Assembly: GCA_026770025.1 (NCBI GenBank)
Contig: JAMXDE010000010.1
Coordinates: forward strand, 868,001 to 932,000
DNA length: 64,000 nucleotides
Direction: 5' to 3'
Source: Craspedostauros australis
Taxonomy: Eukaryota > Bacillariophyta > Bacillariophyceae > Mastogloiales > Achnanthaceae
Of this stretch, positions 2,721 through 43,142 are shown piece after piece. The notes beneath the pieces were generated by a model, which saw nothing but the letters and a program-made list of their open reading frames with translations, made no database searches and was not told where the DNA came from. Numbering within the stretch: the first letter of the stretch is position 1; the number at the start of each line of letters is the position of its first letter. A program made the position numbers and the translations under genes.

Positions 2721-5700
2721 ATGGTTTGTTGTCATCTGGAGTTGAGAGTGCGCTCCTCTACTCTACGACCTGCTCTACACTTGTTTGCCTATCGCCGCTA
2801 TTGGAAATTGCGCTTATTGGTCCAACCACCGCAACCCCCAAAAGATCCGAGGCGAAGGCAAAAGCGGGGCATGATGCAACGAAAGGGGTCATTGGTGATC
2901 CACGGGATCCGCCAGCTTCGTCAAAGCCGATTGGAAGTGAAATCAGTTTCGCGCACAGTCCCAATCGACACGCAGTGCAGAATCAAATCGAGCAGCAATC
3001 TGTCAGAAGCAGAAGCAGAAGCGATATTAGTCTACGAGGAGTCCAACATGACAGAGGATTCCGTTAGATACCAGATCACCGGCCGGGTGGCGCACTCGCG
3101 GATCGCACCGCTGCTGCCATCGGACTGGATTGACTGCAGCCCCACTGCTGGAGATGCGACGGCTCCAAATTCAGAGCAATCGCTGCAAGAGGAGGACGAT
3201 GGTGGTGACCGGCAGAGCATCGACTTCCTGTGGGAGAATGCTCCTCGTCACGAGACGAGAGGATACCGGGACAATGTGAAGGTGTACTCTCACCTTCCCA
3301 ACGGAACTTCCATCTTGGACAGCAAATGGGTGCTGGGCCGTTTGCTGGGTCGCGATGTTTGCGATGGCACTGACGATCCTTGCTTGGCAACTCTGTCCAC
3401 CCACTGCGTGCAGGGACTGGCAGGCTTTCGATCATTCTGCCATGAAGTTGGTCTCGTGCCAATCGACAGCAGCAACCGCAACGCTGGGACTGTCGCTGAC
3501 AACGATGTTGCTGGGGTTGGCGGCACTGAAGCACAAAGGCCAACTCAAGCCAACGACTTTTCTGTTGCAGCTTTTGCAGATTTGTGCGACAAGGAGGACG
3601 CATCTGCGTCTGCGAAAGGCGAGGCATCCCCTCCTCCGGCTCCCACCAATTTCTGGGTGCTCAAGGACTCCAGCAGCAACGGTGCTGGCGGGATTTGGAT
3701 CGTCGGCCCAGAAAACGTCCACAGATTCTTGGATGCATCCACATCGCCACTCTTCGAGACGCATCGGTACGTTCTTCAGGAGTACGTTTGGCCGCCGATT
3801 CTGTATCAACAGAGGAAGTGCCATGTTCGCGTCTATGGACTCGTGACTTCAGATGGCAGGTCATTCTGCCATCAGCGTTGCTTCCTGCATGTCGCCAACG
3901 ACATCTTCCAATACACGTCGCCGACAGTATCATCATCTGCAGCAGCAGCGGCAGCGACAACAGAATCGGTTCGTGCAAGCGGCGATACTGAGTCCATGTC
4001 CCGAGAGTCATCCAAACAGATCTTTCATGATTCCGTGCACATCACCAACTGCTGTGCCAACAGCCACGATCAGCACAAGTTTGCAGGTGAAATCTTGGCG
4101 GACCTGCAATCCGACCAGTGGGGCGTGGATCCAAACGGAGAGACCATCGTCCTGCTCAAGCAGTTCTACCCATCCATCAAGTCCACCCTCAGCGCCCTCA
4201 CCGAGCGCTCATGGCCCTTCTGTGGCAACGGAGGCAGAGCCAACAACGGCTTCGAATACCTGGGAATGGATTTCATCCTTTCCTTCAAACAAGATGAAGA
4301 CGATCCCACCCGAACGCATCCCGTAGCGTACCTTTTGGAGGTCAACGCCCCGCCTTCGCAGGACACAGCGACTGGCTTGCCCCACGCGGAGGACCTGCAC
4401 AACGACGTTCTGAGGGATCTTCTTCATCTCTGGGTGATTCCGAACATCATGCCTGGAATTCCGGAACGACCAGGTGGTTGGATGTGCGTCTACCAACATC
4501 AGGACGAATCGGAAGCGGAACGGCGCCAGCAAAACGAGAACACGAAGACTAGCGACATCGTACCGTCCAAGGCCGTCATCCTCAACAAAATCCGATGGAC
4601 GCTCTATGAAAAGAAGCTGATCAAGTCGGCTGCATCCAAGCGATCTTCCGTTGCCGCAGCGTCTCATTCTGCTATCAAAGGCAACGACAACGACAAACAA
4701 CAGACTGCCCCGGCATCAGCGAAAACGGCAACGGTATCAAAGACAGAATCAACGTCGAACACAACCGGTACGCAGCCCTGTGAGAAGTGCAAGATTGACA
4801 CAGCTGCGCATGATGATACCAACGAGATGGACCAAGACATGAAACACCGTGCGTTCTGCCACAATGTCGCAAGCTACGCTCAATCTCAATCCCCGTTCTT
4901 TGGTTATCATGATCAACATACCACAACCACTGCATCCAATCCATCCAAACCACCCAATCGACAGCCGCTGTTCTTTGAGAGTGCTGGGGGCGCGCAAGTT
5001 CCAGAATCAGTGCGAGCCTCGATGATGAAGGTGCTGCAATTCCGACATCGTGACATTGTTGGCAAGCGCTGCAAGGAGGCTGCGCGTGATACCATCCGGC
5101 GCATGCTTGGTGCCTCCGAGGATCGGTATTCCATCTTTCTAGGACAGAATGCAACGACCCTGCTTTCGCTGTTAGCATTCGCGTACTTGCAATGCGGATT
5201 GTTGACGTGCGCCGATGAGGTCATTATTTGCACGGAAAATCATCTCGCCAACGTCGATCCGTGGCTCAAGGTCTCCGCAATCTCTGGATGTCAAATCAAG
5301 TGGTGGAATCCATTTCGATCGCGCAACAACACCAGCAGCGAAGGTGATACCGATGCAAGAGACAGCCGCGGGGGTAATGGTTCAGATGATCGAAAACGAA
5401 TTTGGTCAAATGACCTCAACGATTTGGTTTCACCCCGGACACGCATCGTCGCCATCTCTCATGCATCCAATTTGTTGGGAGAAGTTCGTGATATTCAACA
5501 GATTCAGGGCATTGTCAGGAAACAATCCGACGGCCGTGCTCACTGTGTCGTCGATGGTGTCGCTGTGGCACCTCACATCTATCCCAACATCGACACCAAC
5601 ACTGTGGACTGGTACGTAATTTCGTGCCACAAACTATTCGGCCCTCACATCGGTGCGCTGGCAGGATCCAACAACGTTGTGCAATCCATGTCCGAGGACC

Positions 5701-6452
5701 CAACCGCTGTGTTCAAGTCGCTGGAACTCGGCACCATCAGCTACGAAGCATGCGCGGGCATTGTGGGTTTGGGTCAGTACTTCAGCAACCTGGTGGATCG
5801 CTGTTGCGAGGGCAGTCGGGTGCCACTGATGGACAAAACTCAGCTGCACGGATATGATCAAGAACCGGGACAGCAGGGAGCGCTCGGAGACAGCGTCGGT
5901 GGGAAACACCGTATTGTCTCCGTGAGTTCCATCTTGTCCTCGCAGGGTTTTCCACATACTCAACAACAGACGCACTCCGAACCAACGCAAGAACAGGGGA
6001 AGCAACAGCATCCTGAGCAAGCAGATCCATTTCGCGTTGTTCCGAAAGCACACATCGTGGATGCGTATCGACATGTTTTGGAAACTGTCGAGCCAATACT
6101 GTATCAGCACCTCGTGGCGATGTTGCAAAAGTCCACAGACAAGATCCGGCTGTTGCAATCTTCGTCGTCGTCATCCTCGTTGCACGTCACCTGCAATATT
6201 CCATCCACGCATCAACGACTTCCGATCGTGGCATTCGTCCATCGGACGCTGGCTCCGGCCGAGATTGTGCAATTCTGCCAATCGAATGACATCCTTTGCC
6301 GTGCCAGTACGTTCCTTGCCACGCAGTGGATGTCGGATGACTTTGAGTTCGATTGCAACGAGGGAGTCGTGCGGTTCTCCATGGCACATTACAACGGAAT
6401 CAATGAAATCGAGCGTGCCGTGACTGTCCTTGGTACGATGGAAGGTTGGTGA
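2721..6452 (+). CDS. Fusion of tubulin-tyrosine-ligase-like domain and class V aminotransferase (cysteine-desulfurase-like)
   Basis: One uninterrupted frame of 1,243 codons. The N-terminal half (about residues 300-560) is a TTL-type ATP-grasp: WVLKDSSSNGAGG for ATP binding, KCHVRVYGLVT (compare KFDxRxYVLVT of TTL enzymes), and LLEVNAPPSQD with the metal-binding Glu and Asn. After a Ser/Lys-rich linker, residues about 748-1243 form a PLP fold-type I class V domain: FFESAGGAQVP, QNATTLLSLL, ENHLANVDPW, VVDGVAVAPH and SCHKLFGPHIGAL, whose Lys (about residue 968) should bind PLP. These signatures match the VC1184-type cysteine-desulfurase-like family. The first 109 residues are basic and unlike the rest, so translation may begin at the ATG at 3048 (MTEDSVRYQ) instead. 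The next gene lies tail to tail. What two such activities do in one chain is unknown. Confidence 0.8.
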   Translation: MVCCHLELRVRSSTLRPALHLFAYRRYWKLRLLVQPPQPPKDPRRRQKRGMMQRKGSLVIHGIRQLRQSRLEVKSVSRTVPIDTQCRIKSSSNLSEAEAEAILVYEESNMTEDSVRYQITGRVAHSRIAPLLPSDWIDCSPTAGDATAPNSEQSLQEEDDGGDRQSIDFLWENAPRHETRGYRDNVKVYSHLPNGTSILDSKWVLGRLLGRDVCDGTDDPCLATLSTHCVQGLAGFRSFCHEVGLVPIDSSNRNAGTVADNDVAGVGGTEAQRPTQANDFSVAAFADLCDKEDASASAKGEASPPPAPTNFWVLKDSSSNGAGGIWIVGPENVHRFLDASTSPLFETHRYVLQEYVWPPILYQQRKCHVRVYGLVTSDGRSFCHQRCFLHVANDIFQYTSPTVSSSAAAAAATTESVRASGDTESMSRESSKQIFHDSVHITNCCANSHDQHKFAGEILADLQSDQWGVDPNGETIVLLKQFYPSIKSTLSALTERSWPFCGNGGRANNGFEYLGMDFILSFKQDEDDPTRTHPVAYLLEVNAPPSQDTATGLPHAEDLHNDVLRDLLHLWVIPNIMPGIPERPGGWMCVYQHQDESEAERRQQNENTKTSDIVPSKAVILNKIRWTLYEKKLIKSAASKRSSVAAASHSAIKGNDNDKQQTAPASAKTATVSKTESTSNTTGTQPCEKCKIDTAAHDDTNEMDQDMKHRAFCHNVASYAQSQSPFFGYHDQHTTTTASNPSKPPNRQPLFFESAGGAQVPESVRASMMKVLQFRHRDIVGKRCKEAARDTIRRMLGASEDRYSIFLGQNATTLLSLLAFAYLQCGLLTCADEVIICTENHLANVDPWLKVSAISGCQIKWWNPFRSRNNTSSEGDTDARDSRGGNGSDDRKRIWSNDLNDLVSPRTRIVAISHASNLLGEVRDIQQIQGIVRKQSDGRAHCVVDGVAVAPHIYPNIDTNTVDWYVISCHKLFGPHIGALAGSNNVVQSMSEDPTAVFKSLELGTISYEACAGIVGLGQYFSNLVDRCCEGSRVPLMDKTQLHGYDQEPGQQGALGDSVGGKHRIVSVSSILSSQGFPHTQQQTHSEPTQEQGKQQHPEQADPFRVVPKAHIVDAYRHVLETVEPILYQHLVAMLQKSTDKIRLLQSSSSSSSLHVTCNIPSTHQRLPIVAFVHRTLAPAEIVQFCQSNDILCRASTFLATQWMSDDFEFDCNEGVVRFSMAHYNGINEIERAVTVLGTMEGW

Positions 6453-37012: not shown

Positions 37013-39877
37013 ATGCGGATGCTCTGTGGTAGTCGTACCAGTGCATACATGAACCTTGAATTGCCCAGAATCAGAAAGCAATCACGAGAAGCTGTCGGGA
37101 CGACAACCAGCAACGCTGCGTCCTTGTGCTGGCGAAGACAGTGCTTCGGTGTCACACTTTGCTCGCAAGCAGTTGCGAAGCGCTCGGATCATCGTCGTGC
37201 CAGTGCCATACGAGCCGCGAGTGCGCTTGGGGAGGAAGACGACATGGACCAATCGTTGCCTGTGGGCGGTGAAGAACCCCATCGCGGCGACCAGCTGCCG
37301 CTGTCGGAGATCGTGGCGACGGAAGATCCCGCGGATATGCATGTGGACATCGATGAGAATGACACCATGGACGCTGCTGCAACTGCGTCTGCTGCTGTGG
37401 CTGACGGAGACGGCGCAAGCCCAACGACCGAGGGGCGGCAGACGAGCGCAGATCCACGCGCATCCTTCGCGCCATGCTCACCGACTGGGATGAGGCGCAC
37501 CTTTCCTGGAATACAGCTGCCGCTGGTGCTCTGCTTCTTGTTCGCTCTGCTATTAACGGATCAAGCAGCTGCGCAAGGATGGCCGCGGCAAGGCAAGCGA
37601 TCGGGAAAGCAGCATGCAGTGCAACAGTCGCACGGCCAAACTCGCAAGGGCCAGCTGCATGCAGCAGATCGCATTCTGGACGAGGCCGGGGCCGACATCA
37701 TCAAGGAATCAGTCAGGGTGGACTTCGAGGTCGCCGAGGTGCCCATGCCAAAGTCGGCGGACATGGATGAGTTCACGCAGCTGGTCAAAACTACGCTGCA
37801 GGATTACCTGAAAACCACCCTCCAGGCGCTCCTGCGGAATGACTTCGTCGACCTGCGGGCAGTCAGCTTGCTCGTCACCGCGCTGCGGACACGGCGGCTC
37901 GTTCGCGGGAGGTGGCTGCAGGCTCCCGCTTCCACCGACCAGCCAGTCACGCTGCAGGTGGGTGGCGGGGTGCAGTTTGACATCCAATCGGGTGGTGGAG
38001 TGGATTTGGACACATTCCGCAATTCGGTCAATCAAGAAATCAACAGTCTCACATCGGATGACAACATTCGTCAGGTGCTGCAGGACGCCAATGTCACTGG
38101 TGCCAATTCTGTATTCTTGACGTCCACAGCCGATACCGAGGGCAACGATGGTGATGGCACGGATCAGCAGAGCAACGCAACACGGGAAGAAACGGCCCCA
38201 GATGACAATTCCGATCGAGGACCGTCAACGCTTTCCATCATCTTTGGCTTCACGCTCACGGGGATCGCGACTGCGGGGCTCTTCGTCTACGCGTACCTCT
38301 TCTATCGCAAACGCAAAAAGTCGCTCGCCAAGAAGCGCCAGCGCAAGGAAAGCGTCACGTACACCGGTGGTCAAAGGCCCGCTACGGATTCCACGAGACC
38401 GCCCGCGTCTGCCTTCAAGCCGAACCGCATATCGCCCCGGCGATCAGTCGCCCCCACGCCACACGCGAACATACCCGACGCGGCCGATGAGGAAGAATCG
38501 TCAACGTCGTCCTACAATGGCGTCGACGAATCCGACGATGTTACGCAGGACGTCTTTGCGAAGGAGCTGCAGATGGCGGCGTCGCTCGATCAGCGGGCTT
38601 GGGAAGATTTCCAGCGCAAGACCGATGATGAAGACGGTGCGGCTGGTTCGTCGGTAGACCAGGACGATCCAACATCACCCTTCGCCGCCAAGACCCCGCA
38701 GCCATCACCAGACAGCAACGGCGACTATAGCGGCACGCGATCCTTCCCATACGGTGACGAAGTTGACAACTCGCCGGAGGCAGAAGCTGCCGCGAGAAGC
38801 TTCCCAACCAACGCCATGCCCGACGACGACGAACCATCCGAAGAGGGAATCGAGTGGACGACCGAAGATTTGGCTGGCGTGACACAAGGGGACCGAGAAG
38901 GGGAAGCATCGCCACTCACAACCGATATTGTCATGGAGGTCGAACGGTTGTCCACATTCGTCAAGCGGTATGAGCAACGCAAGGAACGCCAAGTCCAGAG
39001 GGAGCACGAGATTCGCTCCCGCGGCTTTGCGAGAATCGGCTTCGATGGACAGATCGTTGACAACAGCCATGTCGATGAGAAGAAGGAGGTAGACATGTAC
39101 ACACCCGGAAGTGGAAGGAGCGGATCGCACAACCAACAACAGCAGCAGCAGGAACCAGCCTCGTCACCAACCGAGCAACGCATGAACATCCCTGTCCCGC
39201 ATGTACGAGCGATGGACAATCGAAATGAAGTCAGTCTCGAAAATCTGGATTTGGATGATGACGAGACCACGCTGGAGGATCCAAATATGCGCCTTGGGAT
39301 TACTCCGTTCTCTGTCCAAAGACCGGGGACGATCTCGTATGAAGGCGTCGCATCGCCGATGAAGCCCATGATGCAAAGCATCATGCGGAGTTCAGAACGA
39401 AATGCAGAACCGAGCGGCCGTGACGAAGACGACGGTGCTCGCGAAACAACTCCTCCGGCTGTACAAAGCCGCGGCAGCCCAGCATCCCAGGCCACCCACC
39501 GCACGGCAGCCTCAGCTGCATCCGAACGGCAGCAACGCGAGGCCGCCAACCGATTGATGCTGGCGAAACTCCGCGGCGTTTCAACGTCACCGCCAAAGGG
39601 AGACCGGTTGACGTCGCTCCGAGAAAGGACGTCCATCATGGACACAACTCGATCAGAAGCCGGCGTGAGCAACGTGCAGTACCAACCCCAATTCAACCCC
39701 GTCGCGAGTACCAATGCCGCCATCGCAGCCGCCAAGGCCAAATTCCGCGGCAGCGTCAAGGATCTACGTTCCAAGTTCGAAAACACCACTCATCGAGGCG
39801 CCATCTTCCCACCGGATGTGAGCTGGCAGTACGGTTCGTCTGCACCTTCATCGGTCGCGGGGAGCGCACACTTATGA
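37013..39877 (+). CDS. Membrane protein of unknown function with disordered cytoplasmic tail
   Basis: The open frame has 954 codons. Two hydrophobic segments are clear: LPLVLCFLFALLLTDQAAAQ (about residues 165-186) and IIFGFTLTGIATAGLFVYAY (about 408-428), the latter followed by FYRKRKKSLAKKRQRK as a cytoplasmic stop signal. If translation starts at the ATG at 37490, the first segment is a typical cleavable signal peptide and the product is a type I membrane protein of about 795 residues. Starts at 37013 and 37244 are also open. The lumenal or extracellular part (about 190-400) holds a compact region (TLQDYLKTTLQALLRNDFVD, then VGGGVQFDIQSGGGVDLDTF) that loosely recalls SEA-like domains. The long acidic Ser/Arg-rich tail looks disordered. 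I do not recognise the family. It converges with the receptor-like PARP gene, stops 223 bp apart. Confidence 0.7.
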   Translation: MRMLCGSRTSAYMNLELPRIRKQSREAVGTTTSNAASLCWRRQCFGVTLCSQAVAKRSDHRRASAIRAASALGEEDDMDQSLPVGGEEPHRGDQLPLSEIVATEDPADMHVDIDENDTMDAAATASAAVADGDGASPTTEGRQTSADPRASFAPCSPTGMRRTFPGIQLPLVLCFLFALLLTDQAAAQGWPRQGKRSGKQHAVQQSHGQTRKGQLHAADRILDEAGADIIKESVRVDFEVAEVPMPKSADMDEFTQLVKTTLQDYLKTTLQALLRNDFVDLRAVSLLVTALRTRRLVRGRWLQAPASTDQPVTLQVGGGVQFDIQSGGGVDLDTFRNSVNQEINSLTSDDNIRQVLQDANVTGANSVFLTSTADTEGNDGDGTDQQSNATREETAPDDNSDRGPSTLSIIFGFTLTGIATAGLFVYAYLFYRKRKKSLAKKRQRKESVTYTGGQRPATDSTRPPASAFKPNRISPRRSVAPTPHANIPDAADEEESSTSSYNGVDESDDVTQDVFAKELQMAASLDQRAWEDFQRKTDDEDGAAGSSVDQDDPTSPFAAKTPQPSPDSNGDYSGTRSFPYGDEVDNSPEAEAAARSFPTNAMPDDDEPSEEGIEWTTEDLAGVTQGDREGEASPLTTDIVMEVERLSTFVKRYEQRKERQVQREHEIRSRGFARIGFDGQIVDNSHVDEKKEVDMYTPGSGRSGSHNQQQQQQEPASSPTEQRMNIPVPHVRAMDNRNEVSLENLDLDDDETTLEDPNMRLGITPFSVQRPGTISYEGVASPMKPMMQSIMRSSERNAEPSGRDEDDGARETTPPAVQSRGSPASQATHRTAASAASERQQREAANRLMLAKLRGVSTSPPKGDRLTSLRERTSIMDTTRSEAGVSNVQYQPQFNPVASTNAAIAAAKAKFRGSVKDLRSKFENTTHRGAIFPPDVSWQYGSSAPSSVAGSAHL

Positions 39878-40100: not shown

Positions 40101-43100
40101 TCAATCGGTTTGCGGGTGGCATCGGAACTTGACCAGGTACTCGGGATAGGCCTGAGCGTCATGGTACACGACGAAGACTGACGGATTGTCGGCATTGTCG
40201 ACGGTCGAATCAAACAGCTCCAAGCGGTTGTGCGGCTTGGAGTTCGGAGTCAGCTGTCCGTACGTCCCGCCGCACCAATCTCCAACGGCCACGCGGCACA
40301 TGAATACGTGCTGAAGGCCATTCGCATCAGGGACCGAGTAGGTTGAGTCAACGGAATAGGACGAATCGCGGGCGAAGTACACGCCCTTCCCGTACGCCAC
40401 GGCGTTGCGTCCCGCGAAGGATCTGTTGAAACCCTGTCGCTGGATCTTGCGGATGTTATGTTCCACGGTGCCGTGAAACAGCCACTTGCGCTCCACCTCG
40501 TAGCTCTTGTTGTGGATGATAGTCTGTGGATTTTCCTCGAATGCGAGCTTCATGGTCTGCCTTTTCACTGCGTAGGTTTGCCACAGCGGCAGATTCTGAA
40601 TCCGTGTGATGGATACGATTTCAATCGATTCGCGGCTGCTGGGATACAGTCCCTTTGCAAAGTAATCTTGCACCTTCGTGAATTCGCGCGATCCATGCCT
40701 CAATGGGAAACGCCCATCGTGCATGCCCGTGCTCCCGTCCTTGGATAACTCCCAGGCGGATGGTGTTTTCAAAGAAGAGACTTCGTCTCCCATGGTCTTG
40801 ACCAGCTCCTCCATCGCGTCGGTGTCGGCAGGTTCCGTTGCCAAGATTGGGAACCACCCGGAGCTGATGCGATTCTTCAACACCTGAGACAGCGTATTGC
40901 TTATTTCGATGCCGAAGGCGACGGATTGCTCGTCGCCAATCTTTGCAGCGTGCGCCCGGAATGGATCGATCAGGACATTCCCATACGCCCATTCATCATC
41001 CAAGGGGTGCCTCTTCATCGTCTGGATGATCTGTCCCTCGGCGATGGGCAGCAGCTCGTCGTTTGTATCGTCAACATCTGTGCTGTTCGGCAGAGGCGGG
41101 AGCCGAGCGTGATGTTCGGAGTCGAGATCGATCTCCACCTCTTCCCGAAAGATGCCCCGTCGATATTCTGTTATCAAGTTGACCTGGGTCATCCCGGAGA
41201 AGTCCAGCTCGTACCGAGGTCCAGTCTGCGGGACAAGCTTGTCTTTCGCAGCAACATGTGTGGAATCGAGTATGTACGTGCTGGAACCGTTGGATTTTGT
41301 GTACTCCTGAAACGCATTCTCAATCTGGTTCGACGTGGCAGCGTTGTACCCAACGTAACGCGTGCCCGGCATCCTCCTGGACTTGGGATGGCTGTCGATC
41401 ATGTGCGGGTCTTCCATCCAGTACCAAATGCCAATCATTGTGGGCGTGTTGCTCGTTTCCGCCTGATGTGCGCTATACGTAGCAGCCGTGCGGAAGGGCA
41501 CCGTTTGTGTCACCCTCCGGATTCCATTCATCTGAAGCTCCAATTGCTTTGCCATCAACGTGATCTCGTTCGTCAGACCACGTTTCTTCGATCTGATCTT
41601 CGTGTATTTGTAGGCGATGGCCACCAGAGCCAGGACAGCAGCTGCCAGCACAAAGTAGATGTACAATGGTAGGCTGTATTCCTCACCAGGCACAGGGGTC
41701 GAAGCCGCCGGGATGGTTCCGCAGGCGGTGGCCTCGTCTAATGCTGTCGGCGTGACGCACACTTGGTGCTGGTCGAGTGTGAAGGTGGGCTCAGTGCCAT
41801 TGGACGGCACTGAAACATCGCCAATCGCCTCCCACTTGTAGGATTGATCTGGGCCTGGCTTAAGATTCAGAATGGAATATGTCGGATCTTTCCTGTCACC
41901 TGTTCCAGTAAAAGCGACCGGGCCGCTGAGGCCATCCTCGAAGGTGAGTCTGCGCATTTCCCGAACTACTGCTTCGCCATCACTTCTCCTGTCGGCGGGG
42001 ACGCGACCGATTGCTTTGACTATGGAAACAGTCGCGTCCACAATTGTTTTGGCGGCGTAATCTTCGAATCCATCGTACGTCTGGAGCCCCAGTTGTGCTT
42101 GGCGCGCATTGAAACGATCCAGGAAATCCCTGTAGTGTTCATTCGTTTCGCGGAAGGGGACCAGACCAAGGTAGCCTGGGTATGGTTTTTCTGGCGAGAA
42201 CTCTGGGATGTACCGTAACGCCCACGCAGATGGGCCCACCCAAATTGTATCATCTCGCACGAGCCCCTCAGCGTTTACCTGGCCCAAGATCTGACCGACA
42301 TCTTGGGCATGCGCCACCAGCAGGATGACCCTCGAGTTGCGTTCAGAATCGATCGCTGGCAAGCTCTCCATGGCCTGTCGGACAGAATCGGGGTCGATGA
42401 TTTTCCGAGTGGGGTTGAGGGGGTCCTCACTCCTGAATGTAAGCGCGGACGTTTGGTAGGATGTGCGGTCGGTCGAGTCCCAGATCTCGCGAAACGCCTT
42501 GGTCATGTCCCTCGGGAATTGCTTGTCGGTCATGACGATGTGGACGTTGTCCCACTCCATCGCCTTGAGCATACCGACGATGGCTCCAACTTGACCGAAT
42601 GCAGTATCGGGAGAGACCATTCGAGAGAACATGGGGTAGTTGTGTGCGTTGTTTGTGAAGATGGGCGACGTCGATGCGGTTGAGACCTGCGGGATGCTTT
42701 CCAGCCCTGACATGATGGCGACTATGTTGGAAACTCCGCTGCATTGGCCGCCTACGATGCCATGGATGTTGTTGTTGAACTTCGATCGGAGCTCCCAGTA
42801 GGCCCCGGCAGCATGCGATGGATCACACGCAGAATCGCCGCTGTCGAAGCGAATCTTGAAGCGGCCGTTCACGAACACGTCATCGTGCCATCCGTCCGAT
42901 GGGTCGTTGAGGAAGGCGATGGCGGCATTGAACACATCCAGACCAAATGGGGCGTCGAGAGCGTCGTAGATCCCGGCGATGTTGACGACGGGCAGCATCT
43001 CCGAGGTCTCATCGCCGGTGATGGTCTCGTTGAGGCCGCGTTGCTTTGGTGAGACCCCTGCCGGCAGTCGTCGTGGGTCGTTGGCTGCCAGCATGCTGCC

Positions 43101-43142
43101 TTGCGCATCGCCGATGGGCGTGGTGGGAGTGTCCTGTGCCAT
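40101..43142 (-). CDS. Receptor-like PARP: ANF/periplasmic-binding domain, membrane helix, WWE, PARP catalytic domain
   Basis: One exon of 1,013 codons from the ATG at 43142. Residues about 50-440 resemble a type 1 periplasmic-binding/ANF-receptor fold: GIYDALDAPFGLDVFNAAIA, a GGQCSGVSNIVAIMSG loop, PQVSTASTSP, and YDGFEDYAAKTIVDA. A single membrane helix follows (IYFVLAAAVLALVAIAY, about 490-507) with basic residues after it (KYTKIRSKKR). Residues about 567-664 look like a WWE domain (GIWYWMED, IENAFQEY, YELDFSGMTQVN, RRGIFR). The PARP domain ends the protein: WLFHGT (His), GKGVYFARDSSYS (Tyr), and VFVVYHDAQAYPEYLVKF. The residue matching PARP1 Glu988 appears to be Val, so mono-ADP-ribosylation (or none) is expected rather than polymer. 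The model has no N-terminal signal peptide; a short upstream exon may be missing. Confidence 0.85.
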   Translation of the reverse strand: MAQDTPTTPIGDAQGSMLAANDPRRLPAGVSPKQRGLNETITGDETSEMLPVVNIAGIYDALDAPFGLDVFNAAIAFLNDPSDGWHDDVFVNGRFKIRFDSGDSACDPSHAAGAYWELRSKFNNNIHGIVGGQCSGVSNIVAIMSGLESIPQVSTASTSPIFTNNAHNYPMFSRMVSPDTAFGQVGAIVGMLKAMEWDNVHIVMTDKQFPRDMTKAFREIWDSTDRTSYQTSALTFRSEDPLNPTRKIIDPDSVRQAMESLPAIDSERNSRVILLVAHAQDVGQILGQVNAEGLVRDDTIWVGPSAWALRYIPEFSPEKPYPGYLGLVPFRETNEHYRDFLDRFNARQAQLGLQTYDGFEDYAAKTIVDATVSIVKAIGRVPADRRSDGEAVVREMRRLTFEDGLSGPVAFTGTGDRKDPTYSILNLKPGPDQSYKWEAIGDVSVPSNGTEPTFTLDQHQVCVTPTALDEATACGTIPAASTPVPGEEYSLPLYIYFVLAAAVLALVAIAYKYTKIRSKKRGLTNEITLMAKQLELQMNGIRRVTQTVPFRTAATYSAHQAETSNTPTMIGIWYWMEDPHMIDSHPKSRRMPGTRYVGYNAATSNQIENAFQEYTKSNGSSTYILDSTHVAAKDKLVPQTGPRYELDFSGMTQVNLITEYRRGIFREEVEIDLDSEHHARLPPLPNSTDVDDTNDELLPIAEGQIIQTMKRHPLDDEWAYGNVLIDPFRAHAAKIGDEQSVAFGIEISNTLSQVLKNRISSGWFPILATEPADTDAMEELVKTMGDEVSSLKTPSAWELSKDGSTGMHDGRFPLRHGSREFTKVQDYFAKGLYPSSRESIEIVSITRIQNLPLWQTYAVKRQTMKLAFEENPQTIIHNKSYEVERKWLFHGTVEHNIRKIQRQGFNRSFAGRNAVAYGKGVYFARDSSYSVDSTYSVPDANGLQHVFMCRVAVGDWCGGTYGQLTPNSKPHNRLELFDSTVDNADNPSVFVVYHDAQAYPEYLVKFRCHPQTD

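Follow-up and report, generated by a model that had tools for sequence, protein, structure and literature searches.

A probable receptor mono-ADP-ribosyltransferase in the diatom Craspedostauros australis, one of five proteins that join a sensor domain, a membrane helix and a PARP domain

In a 64,000-nucleotide stretch of the Craspedostauros australis genome (hereafter the window; contig JAMXDE010000010.1, positions 868,001 to 932,000, or C8:868001-932000 in our numbering, in which C numbers stand for contigs), one gene joins a flytrap-type sensor domain, a single membrane helix, a WWE domain and a PARP domain in one reading frame. Judged from its sequence, the encoded protein is probably a single-pass receptor mono-ADP-ribosyltransferase and one of a five-member family in this diatom. 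This reading is strengthened by the search of the whole genome (74.8 Mb, 90 contigs), in which sensor-helix-PARP proteins turned up on five contigs, one on each (C8, the window gene itself, C19, C30, C57 and C9), combining three kinds of outer domain with two PARP cassettes.

We regard the pairwise comparison of these modules as the strongest single argument for a receptor. The order is flytrap, helix, WWE, SH3-like stretch and PARP in C8 and C19, while C30 (two GT-AG introns, 1140 amino acids) features a signal-peptide-like start, a flytrap, the helix, PARP (expect value, E, 4.5e-12) and only then WWE (E 1.4e-12). In C57, a signal-peptide-like start is followed by dCache_2 (E 1.8e-21), the helix, WWE and PARP, and in C9 a signal-peptide-like first exon, assigned by eye, precedes a taurine-binding-protein-like domain (TIGR01729, E 4.8e-19; a solved taurine binder, E 1.5e-11), a cysteine-rich stretch, the helix, WWE and PARP. 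Pairwise identity among the C8, C19 and C30 flytraps is 34-58% over some 420 amino acids (E about 4e-72 or better), whereas the PARP domain of C30, which stands before its WWE, shares 22-24% identity with those of the cassette group. Conversely, 41-63% identity links the PARP domains of C8, C19, C57, C9 and of a soluble C1 protein, their fronts being a flytrap, a flytrap, dCache, a taurine-binder-like domain and none, respectively. One front thus occurs with two PARP cassettes and one cassette with three fronts, a recurrence which would not be expected of a useless accidental fusion; such recombination of sensors and PARPs is as expected if the pairing is under selection. The flytrap tree sets the three PARP flytraps apart from seven others with a support of 100, and against the flytraps of class C G-protein-coupled receptors (GPCRs) of the same genome they match in pieces of up to 177 amino acids (best E 4.5e-8). 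Supports among the cassette PARPs (25-59) and in a tree of the inner parts (60 and 76) are too low to tell a loss of the receptor part by C1 from a gain by the receptors.

The whole-protein search gave 12 matching places, the window included, and found C30 through its flytrap. A PARP family search likewise gave 12 places, C30 not being among them: five intact cassette frames (C8, C19, C1, C9 and C57), three broken ones (C36, C48 and C10:1319k), three PARP1-like proteins with WGR and PARP_reg in each (C24, C10:972k and C8:593k), and C21. The broken frames are degenerate copies of the soluble C1 WWE-PARP with stops or frame changes (C36:440846-442271, C48:236996-238424 and C10:1319314-1326621), and the C10 copy carries an inserted Copia-type element with RVT_2, gag and integrase matches. 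The place on C21 (588386-588889) is a PARP domain of the WHGT type inside a 3391-codon frame.

An earlier sequence-only reading had placed the gene at 40101..43142 of the window and had left its strand unnamed. An open frame does occupy exactly this interval, on the minus strand, running from an ATG at 43142 to a stop that ends at 40101 and containing no internal stops; frame 1 of the plus strand over the same stretch is interrupted by stops. The domain order proposed in that reading, i.e., flytrap, single helix, WWE and PARP in one frame, agrees with hydropathy and with Pfam, where a scan reaching E up to 1 matched four families, each over its curated cut-off. The features are as follows:

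40101..43142, minus strand: whole coding frame, 1013 amino acids plus stop, with flytrap, membrane helix, WWE, SH3-like stretch and PARP (reading frame, Pfam, hydropathy, full-length paralogue on C19)
42873..43142, minus strand: residues 1-90, hydrophilic N-terminus and start of the flytrap (the C19 and C30 copies align from about residue 52)
41856..42872, minus strand: residues 91-429, ANF_receptor or Venus-flytrap ligand-binding domain (Pfam E 1.8e-36; mGlu7 E 7.5e-15)
42606..42740, minus strand: Ser135, Thr158 and Asp179, opposite the amino-acid-binding Ser165, Thr188 and Asp208 of mGlu1 (mGlu7 alignment and mGlu1 motif; PMC2680970)
41721..41759, minus strand: Cys462 and Cys474, a juxtamembrane pair on the outer side of the helix (alignment)
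41616..41672, minus strand: residues 491-509, single membrane helix (hydropathy; of the 15 residues on either side, none before the helix and 6 after it are Lys/Arg)
41151..41366, minus strand: residues 593-664, WWE domain, with a conserved W-x-W at residue 573 (Pfam E 1.7e-6)
40827..41075, minus strand: residues 690-772, weak SH3-like stretch, ..GQII..WAYG..GWFP (five-member profile, best E 0.13)
40122..40691, minus strand: residues 818-1007, PARP catalytic domain (Pfam E 4.4e-26; PARP15 E 2e-41; five-member profile E 3e-52)
40473..40475, minus strand: catalytic His890 (alignment)
40377..40379, minus strand: catalytic Tyr922 (alignment)
40176..40178, minus strand: Val989 at the position of the polymerase Glu (alignment)

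The sequence-only reading had suggested a periplasmic-binding-like N-terminal part, and this similarity proved to be strong. Apart from ANF_receptor, Peripla_BP_6 was matched over residues 91-422 (Pfam E 2.5e-13), and the mGlu7 flytrap was the best sequence match of the front piece when this was searched alone against the PDB. The correspondence of mGlu7 and mGlu1 residue numbers used for Ser135, Thr158 and Asp179 is presumed here. In mGlu1, five main residues (Ser, Thr, Asp, Tyr and Asp), listed also for Venus kinase receptors, contact the amino-acid part of the bound glutamate (PMC2680970), and three of the five are kept in the window flytrap (S135, T158 and D179). An amino acid or a derivative of one would fit as the ligand.

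The cysteines of the outer part also bear on its location. Cys106 and Cys134 are common to all three flytraps, and C8, C19 and C30 each have a juxtamembrane pair with C-G-x-I-P at its end; in C30, the first Cys was matched by eye and does not stand in the same alignment column. All four outer cysteines of the window protein fall within the pairs Cys106/Cys134 and Cys462/Cys474, a pairing suggestive of disulphides and, through these, of an outer location of the flytrap. At a cut-off of 1.4 for hydropathy over 19 residues, only residues 491-509 of the window protein qualify, which leaves exactly one helix between ectodomain and enzyme. In agreement with the positive-inside rule, 0-2 Lys/Arg residues stand before the helix and 6-9 after it in all five proteins. 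An additional borderline segment within the sensor domain reaches 1.42 in C30 and 1.53 in C9, and C30 and C57 also have one at the start; the signal-peptide-like starts of C30, C57 and C9 have hydrophobic scores of 2.54, 2.58 and 1.89, respectively.

On the inner side, the PARP domain proved to be longer than the residues 880-1013 assigned to it earlier, since Pfam places it at 818-1007 (PF00644; 92.1 bits, cut-off 26.7). Sequence matches in the PDB include PARP15 over residues 814-1007 and PARP14 over 840-1007 (E 3e-41). The catalytic His and Tyr that had been noticed by eye correspond in the alignment to His890 and Tyr922, and the Val suspected as third triad residue is Val989, opposite Leu in PARP15 and Glu in the three PARP1-like proteins. 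Both the His and the Tyr of the site for nicotinamide adenine dinucleotide (NAD+) are kept in 10/10 aligned PARP domains. The third residue is Val in C8 and C19, Leu in C57, Ile in C9 and C30, Thr in the soluble C1 protein and Glu in 3/3 PARP1-like proteins, i.e., the window protein has Val989 in place of the Glu of polymerase-type enzymes; a Lys at this position in C21 is probably due to misalignment and was not used. As a usual rule, a third triad residue other than Glu goes with mono-ADP-ribosylation, and because Val989 replaces Glu, the window PARP is predicted to be a mono-ADP-ribosyltransferase.

A five-member profile of the WWE part matched the WWE of TRIP12 (E 7.8e-6), and the C19 domain, with E 0.011 under the curated cut-off, nevertheless aligns with those of the other members. 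The stretch between WWE and PARP appears to have a split-SH3 pattern, weakly so, and we use SH3-like as a label only: a five-sequence profile of this middle part had no significant match, and at E up to 10 it gave 20 PDB chains, 19 of them SH3 chains.

In a receptor of this kind, the flytrap would lie outside the cell or in the secretory lumen and, being dimeric, would close on a small molecule, for which an amino acid or a derivative of one is the likeliest candidate. By closing, the flytraps could shift the two helices against each other and reorient the paired cytosolic WWE-SH3-like-PARP tails, whereupon PARP would use NAD+ to mono-ADP-ribosylate itself or proteins close by, a product that the WWE domain could hold or read. 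The sister proteins might act likewise on other ligands, e.g., taurine or sulfonates in the case of C9 and, as a guess from the Cache ectodomain, carboxylic acids in that of C57. With somewhat less confidence, we propose that receptor ADP-ribosyltransferases form a separate cell-surface class beside receptor kinases and cyclases, and that diatoms build them by fitting exchangeable ectodomains for nutrient sensing (amino-acid flytrap, Cache, taurine/sulfonate binder) to two PARP cassettes, thereby reading dissolved organics as mono-ADP-ribosylation.

Several findings, however, weigh against a receptor. No signal peptide was found in the window protein or in C19, where the best near-start hydrophobic scores are 0.64 and 1.54, and it would be unusual for an N-terminus of 490 residues to cross the membrane in this way. 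A 5' signal-peptide exon, which the sequence-only reading had looked to, was not found upstream of the window gene, nor was a convincing upstream exon found for C19. ATGs with a score of at least 2.0 numbered 0 in the 1.8 kb upstream of the window gene and 4 for C19, a threshold at which a genuine signal peptide can be missed, as the start of C9 itself scores 1.89. At a laxer score of 1.3 over 1.1 kb, one candidate appeared for the window gene at -1074 (1.75), overlapping the end of the carbamoyl-phosphate synthase large chain gene, which is the next gene upstream on the same strand and ends 1 kb from the window gene. As to the candidates of C19, whose start codon was chosen (an earlier ATG lies 29 codons upstream in its frame), the one at -189 has no usable donor, and the other three, for which in-frame GT-AG joins are possible, have no further support and were not counted. 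In a search for an upstream exon shared by C8 and C19, 2/9 frame pairs beat the best of 20 shuffles (98 vs 79; 54 vs 49), the top pair being a low-complexity Ser/Pro/Thr stretch and thus rejected as a conserved exon. In these two proteins, either a signal-peptide exon was missed or the helix itself would bring about insertion. Moreover, glycosylation motifs are not denser outside (2 outside vs 4 inside), and two of the five amino-acid-motif positions are changed, with Phe209 for Tyr and Ser305 for Asp. The C9 protein has a catalytic motif of His-Ser-Thr, not His-Gly-Thr (L016:7011-7637), and its PARP activity may be altered or weak. The taurine and Cache matches in NCBIfam fall under the curated cut-offs (68.9 vs 304 bits and 28.5 vs 700, respectively), for which reason the ligands named for C9 and C57 are only guesses. 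Finally, relatives outside this genome were not found in the viral and prokaryotic collections, which are uninformative on other diatoms: the window protein had no match in viral_contigs, and pattern matches to the five-member PARP alignment numbered 57 in viral_contigs and 58 in genome_contigs, 0 of them confirmed by tblastn.

A chance fusion or a misassembly near the helix, a risk raised by the sequence-only reading, is very unlikely, because the same genome holds a second copy on C19, with the same architecture and junction and 52% identity over residues 50-1007, as well as the flytrap-helix-PARP-WWE protein with another PARP cassette on C30. Two adjacent genes read as a single frame are just as hard to reconcile with the lack of an internal stop and with the constraint across the junction. 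Over the whole of C8 and C19, nonsynonymous divergence (dN) is 0.38 and synonymous divergence (dS) 1.43, a ratio of about 0.26 that speaks of purifying constraint; by part, dN and dS are 0.30 and 1.26 in the flytrap, 0.57 and 2.23 in the helix region, 0.55 and 1.90 from helix to PARP, and 0.29 and 1.30 in PARP, the direction alone being meaningful in all of these as dS is near saturation. The codon index of the window gene is higher in frame (0.27-0.37) than out of frame (0.18-0.24) in each of four parts, with the smallest margin in the helix part (0.27 vs 0.23). The intact frame of 1013 codons and the ratio of about 0.26 also speak against a receptor in decay, one deprived of its signal peptide and no longer delivered properly to the membrane. 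The missing signal peptide and the three broken copies of the soluble C1 cassette would fit such decay; C19, however, also lacks a signal peptide, so that this state is common to both, and we consider decay quite improbable.

An intact protein could still use its PARP domain as a non-enzymatic binding or scaffold module. Human PARP13, with its Tyr-Tyr-Val triad, is inactive, and the third triad residue of the window protein is likewise not Glu. Arabidopsis RCD1 is a further inactive PARP (PMC4245714). Nonetheless, a scaffold seems rather unlikely in view of the His and Tyr kept in all ten aligned domains and of the best solved matches, PARP15 and PARP14, which are named mono-ADP-ribosyltransferases. 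It is possible, if on balance unlikely, that the protein is located in an internal membrane (of the endoplasmic reticulum, the vacuole or the plastid envelope), where the flytrap would sense metabolites of the lumen, not outside ones, on behalf of a cytosolic PARP. Flytraps, Cache domains and taurine binders are generally ectodomains of outward-facing sensors, and the signal-peptide-like starts of C30, C57 and C9 point the same way, whereas the missing signal peptide of C8 and C19 would suit an internal membrane, as would the precedent of PARP16, an endoplasmic-reticulum-anchored PARP with a cytosolic catalytic domain (PMC3372510).

As a receptor, the window protein would by its domains and helix fit the single-pass enzyme-linked receptors, to which a PARP output appears to be new as far as the literature searched goes. 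To our knowledge, the output of the enzyme-linked receptors known so far is phosphorylation, dephosphorylation or cyclic nucleotides. Like the receptor guanylyl cyclases GC-A and GC-B, the window protein combines an ANF_receptor flytrap outside, one helix, an enzyme inside and a juxtamembrane cysteine pair, which natriuretic receptors have as well. Unlike in these, the output enzyme is a PARP and not a cyclase, no cyclase or kinase domain being among the four families that Pfam gave at E up to 1, and among the best 60 of 68 PDB matches the flytraps are those of mGlu, calcium-sensing and GABA-B receptors, not of natriuretic ones. Venus kinase receptors share the amino-acid-type flytrap, the single helix, the enzyme inside and the motif Ser, and the bee receptor forms dimers and is activated by L-arginine (PMC2680970); the window protein differs in carrying a WWE-PARP cassette for the tyrosine kinase and in coming from a diatom, not from invertebrates.

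Among PARPs, the PARP14/PARP15 type (Clade 3) gives the best match and has WWE in the same protein and a non-Glu triad, while a membrane helix and a sensory ectodomain set the window protein apart, as does the absence of a macrodomain match in Pfam. PARP16/ARTD15 has a C-terminal tail anchor and no ligand-binding ectodomain, in which it differs from the window protein. It would resemble the latter as a membrane-anchored mono-ADP-ribosyltransferase with a cytosolic catalytic domain (PMC3372510). Diatom class C GPCRs have a periplasmic-binding-like flytrap, too (PMC3727952), and such GPCRs also occur in this genome; they differ in their seven helices and in flytraps whose similarity to the PARP-receptor flytraps is confined to pieces. 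By Pfam, 7tm_3 is absent from the window protein; of the 11 further ANF_receptor places in the genome, six frames were scanned, and five of these have it. Three class C GPCR-like genes stand in tandem at C1:2039694-2050400 with flytraps 83-91% identical, the first and third having ANF_receptor and 7tm_3 by Pfam.

The diatoms searched by Citarelli (2010; PMC2964712) appear to have no PARPs, and Perina (2014; PMC4245714) lists at least two in Thalassiosira oceanica. The latter source also describes a sponge PARP with an N-terminal transmembrane domain as well as H_lectin and transmembrane domains among Rhizaria PARPs, so that the statement of the sequence-only reading that PARPs are otherwise soluble or organelle-tethered was slightly too strong. 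These membrane PARPs, which may or may not be receptors, are the nearest precedents found (PMC4245714). A receptor with a PARP tail was not found among the open-access titles and abstract openings listed, a collection outside which most subscription journals lie, so that novelty is unproven.

If the window protein is indeed a receptor, ligand binding would be coupled to an NAD+-consuming modification within one molecule. ADP-ribosylation is an internal stress, repair and antiviral signal, and its field would gain a PARP that is switched by a definable small molecule. Furthermore, extracellular nutrients such as amino acids and taurine would be linked to NAD+ metabolism in ecologically major algae.

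Apart from the receptor gene, the window holds three further frames of interest, all on the plus strand. The one at 37013-39874 adjoins the receptor gene and encodes a 954-codon protein without a Pfam match; inspection by eye shows a run of hydrophobic residues close to its start, a single likely helix and a tail that is long and charged. At 2721-6449, a 1243-codon frame pairs tubulin-tyrosine-ligase with class-V aminotransferase matches, an unusual combination that may reflect either a true fusion or two genes sharing a frame. The frame at 9-2579 combines a 2OG-Fe(II) oxygenase and a methyltransferase, a layout which we take to be that of ALKBH8-type tRNA-modifying proteins. The genome as a whole has 61 Chloroa_b-bind matches, which mark it, together with those of Silic_transp, as that of a diatom. 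Silicon transporters, of which diatoms usually have a handful, form a very large family for a diatom: Silic_transp has 88 matches, 32 of which cover 480 or more of the 513 profile positions; 28 of the 32 are free of internal stops, and many of the other matches are partial or broken.

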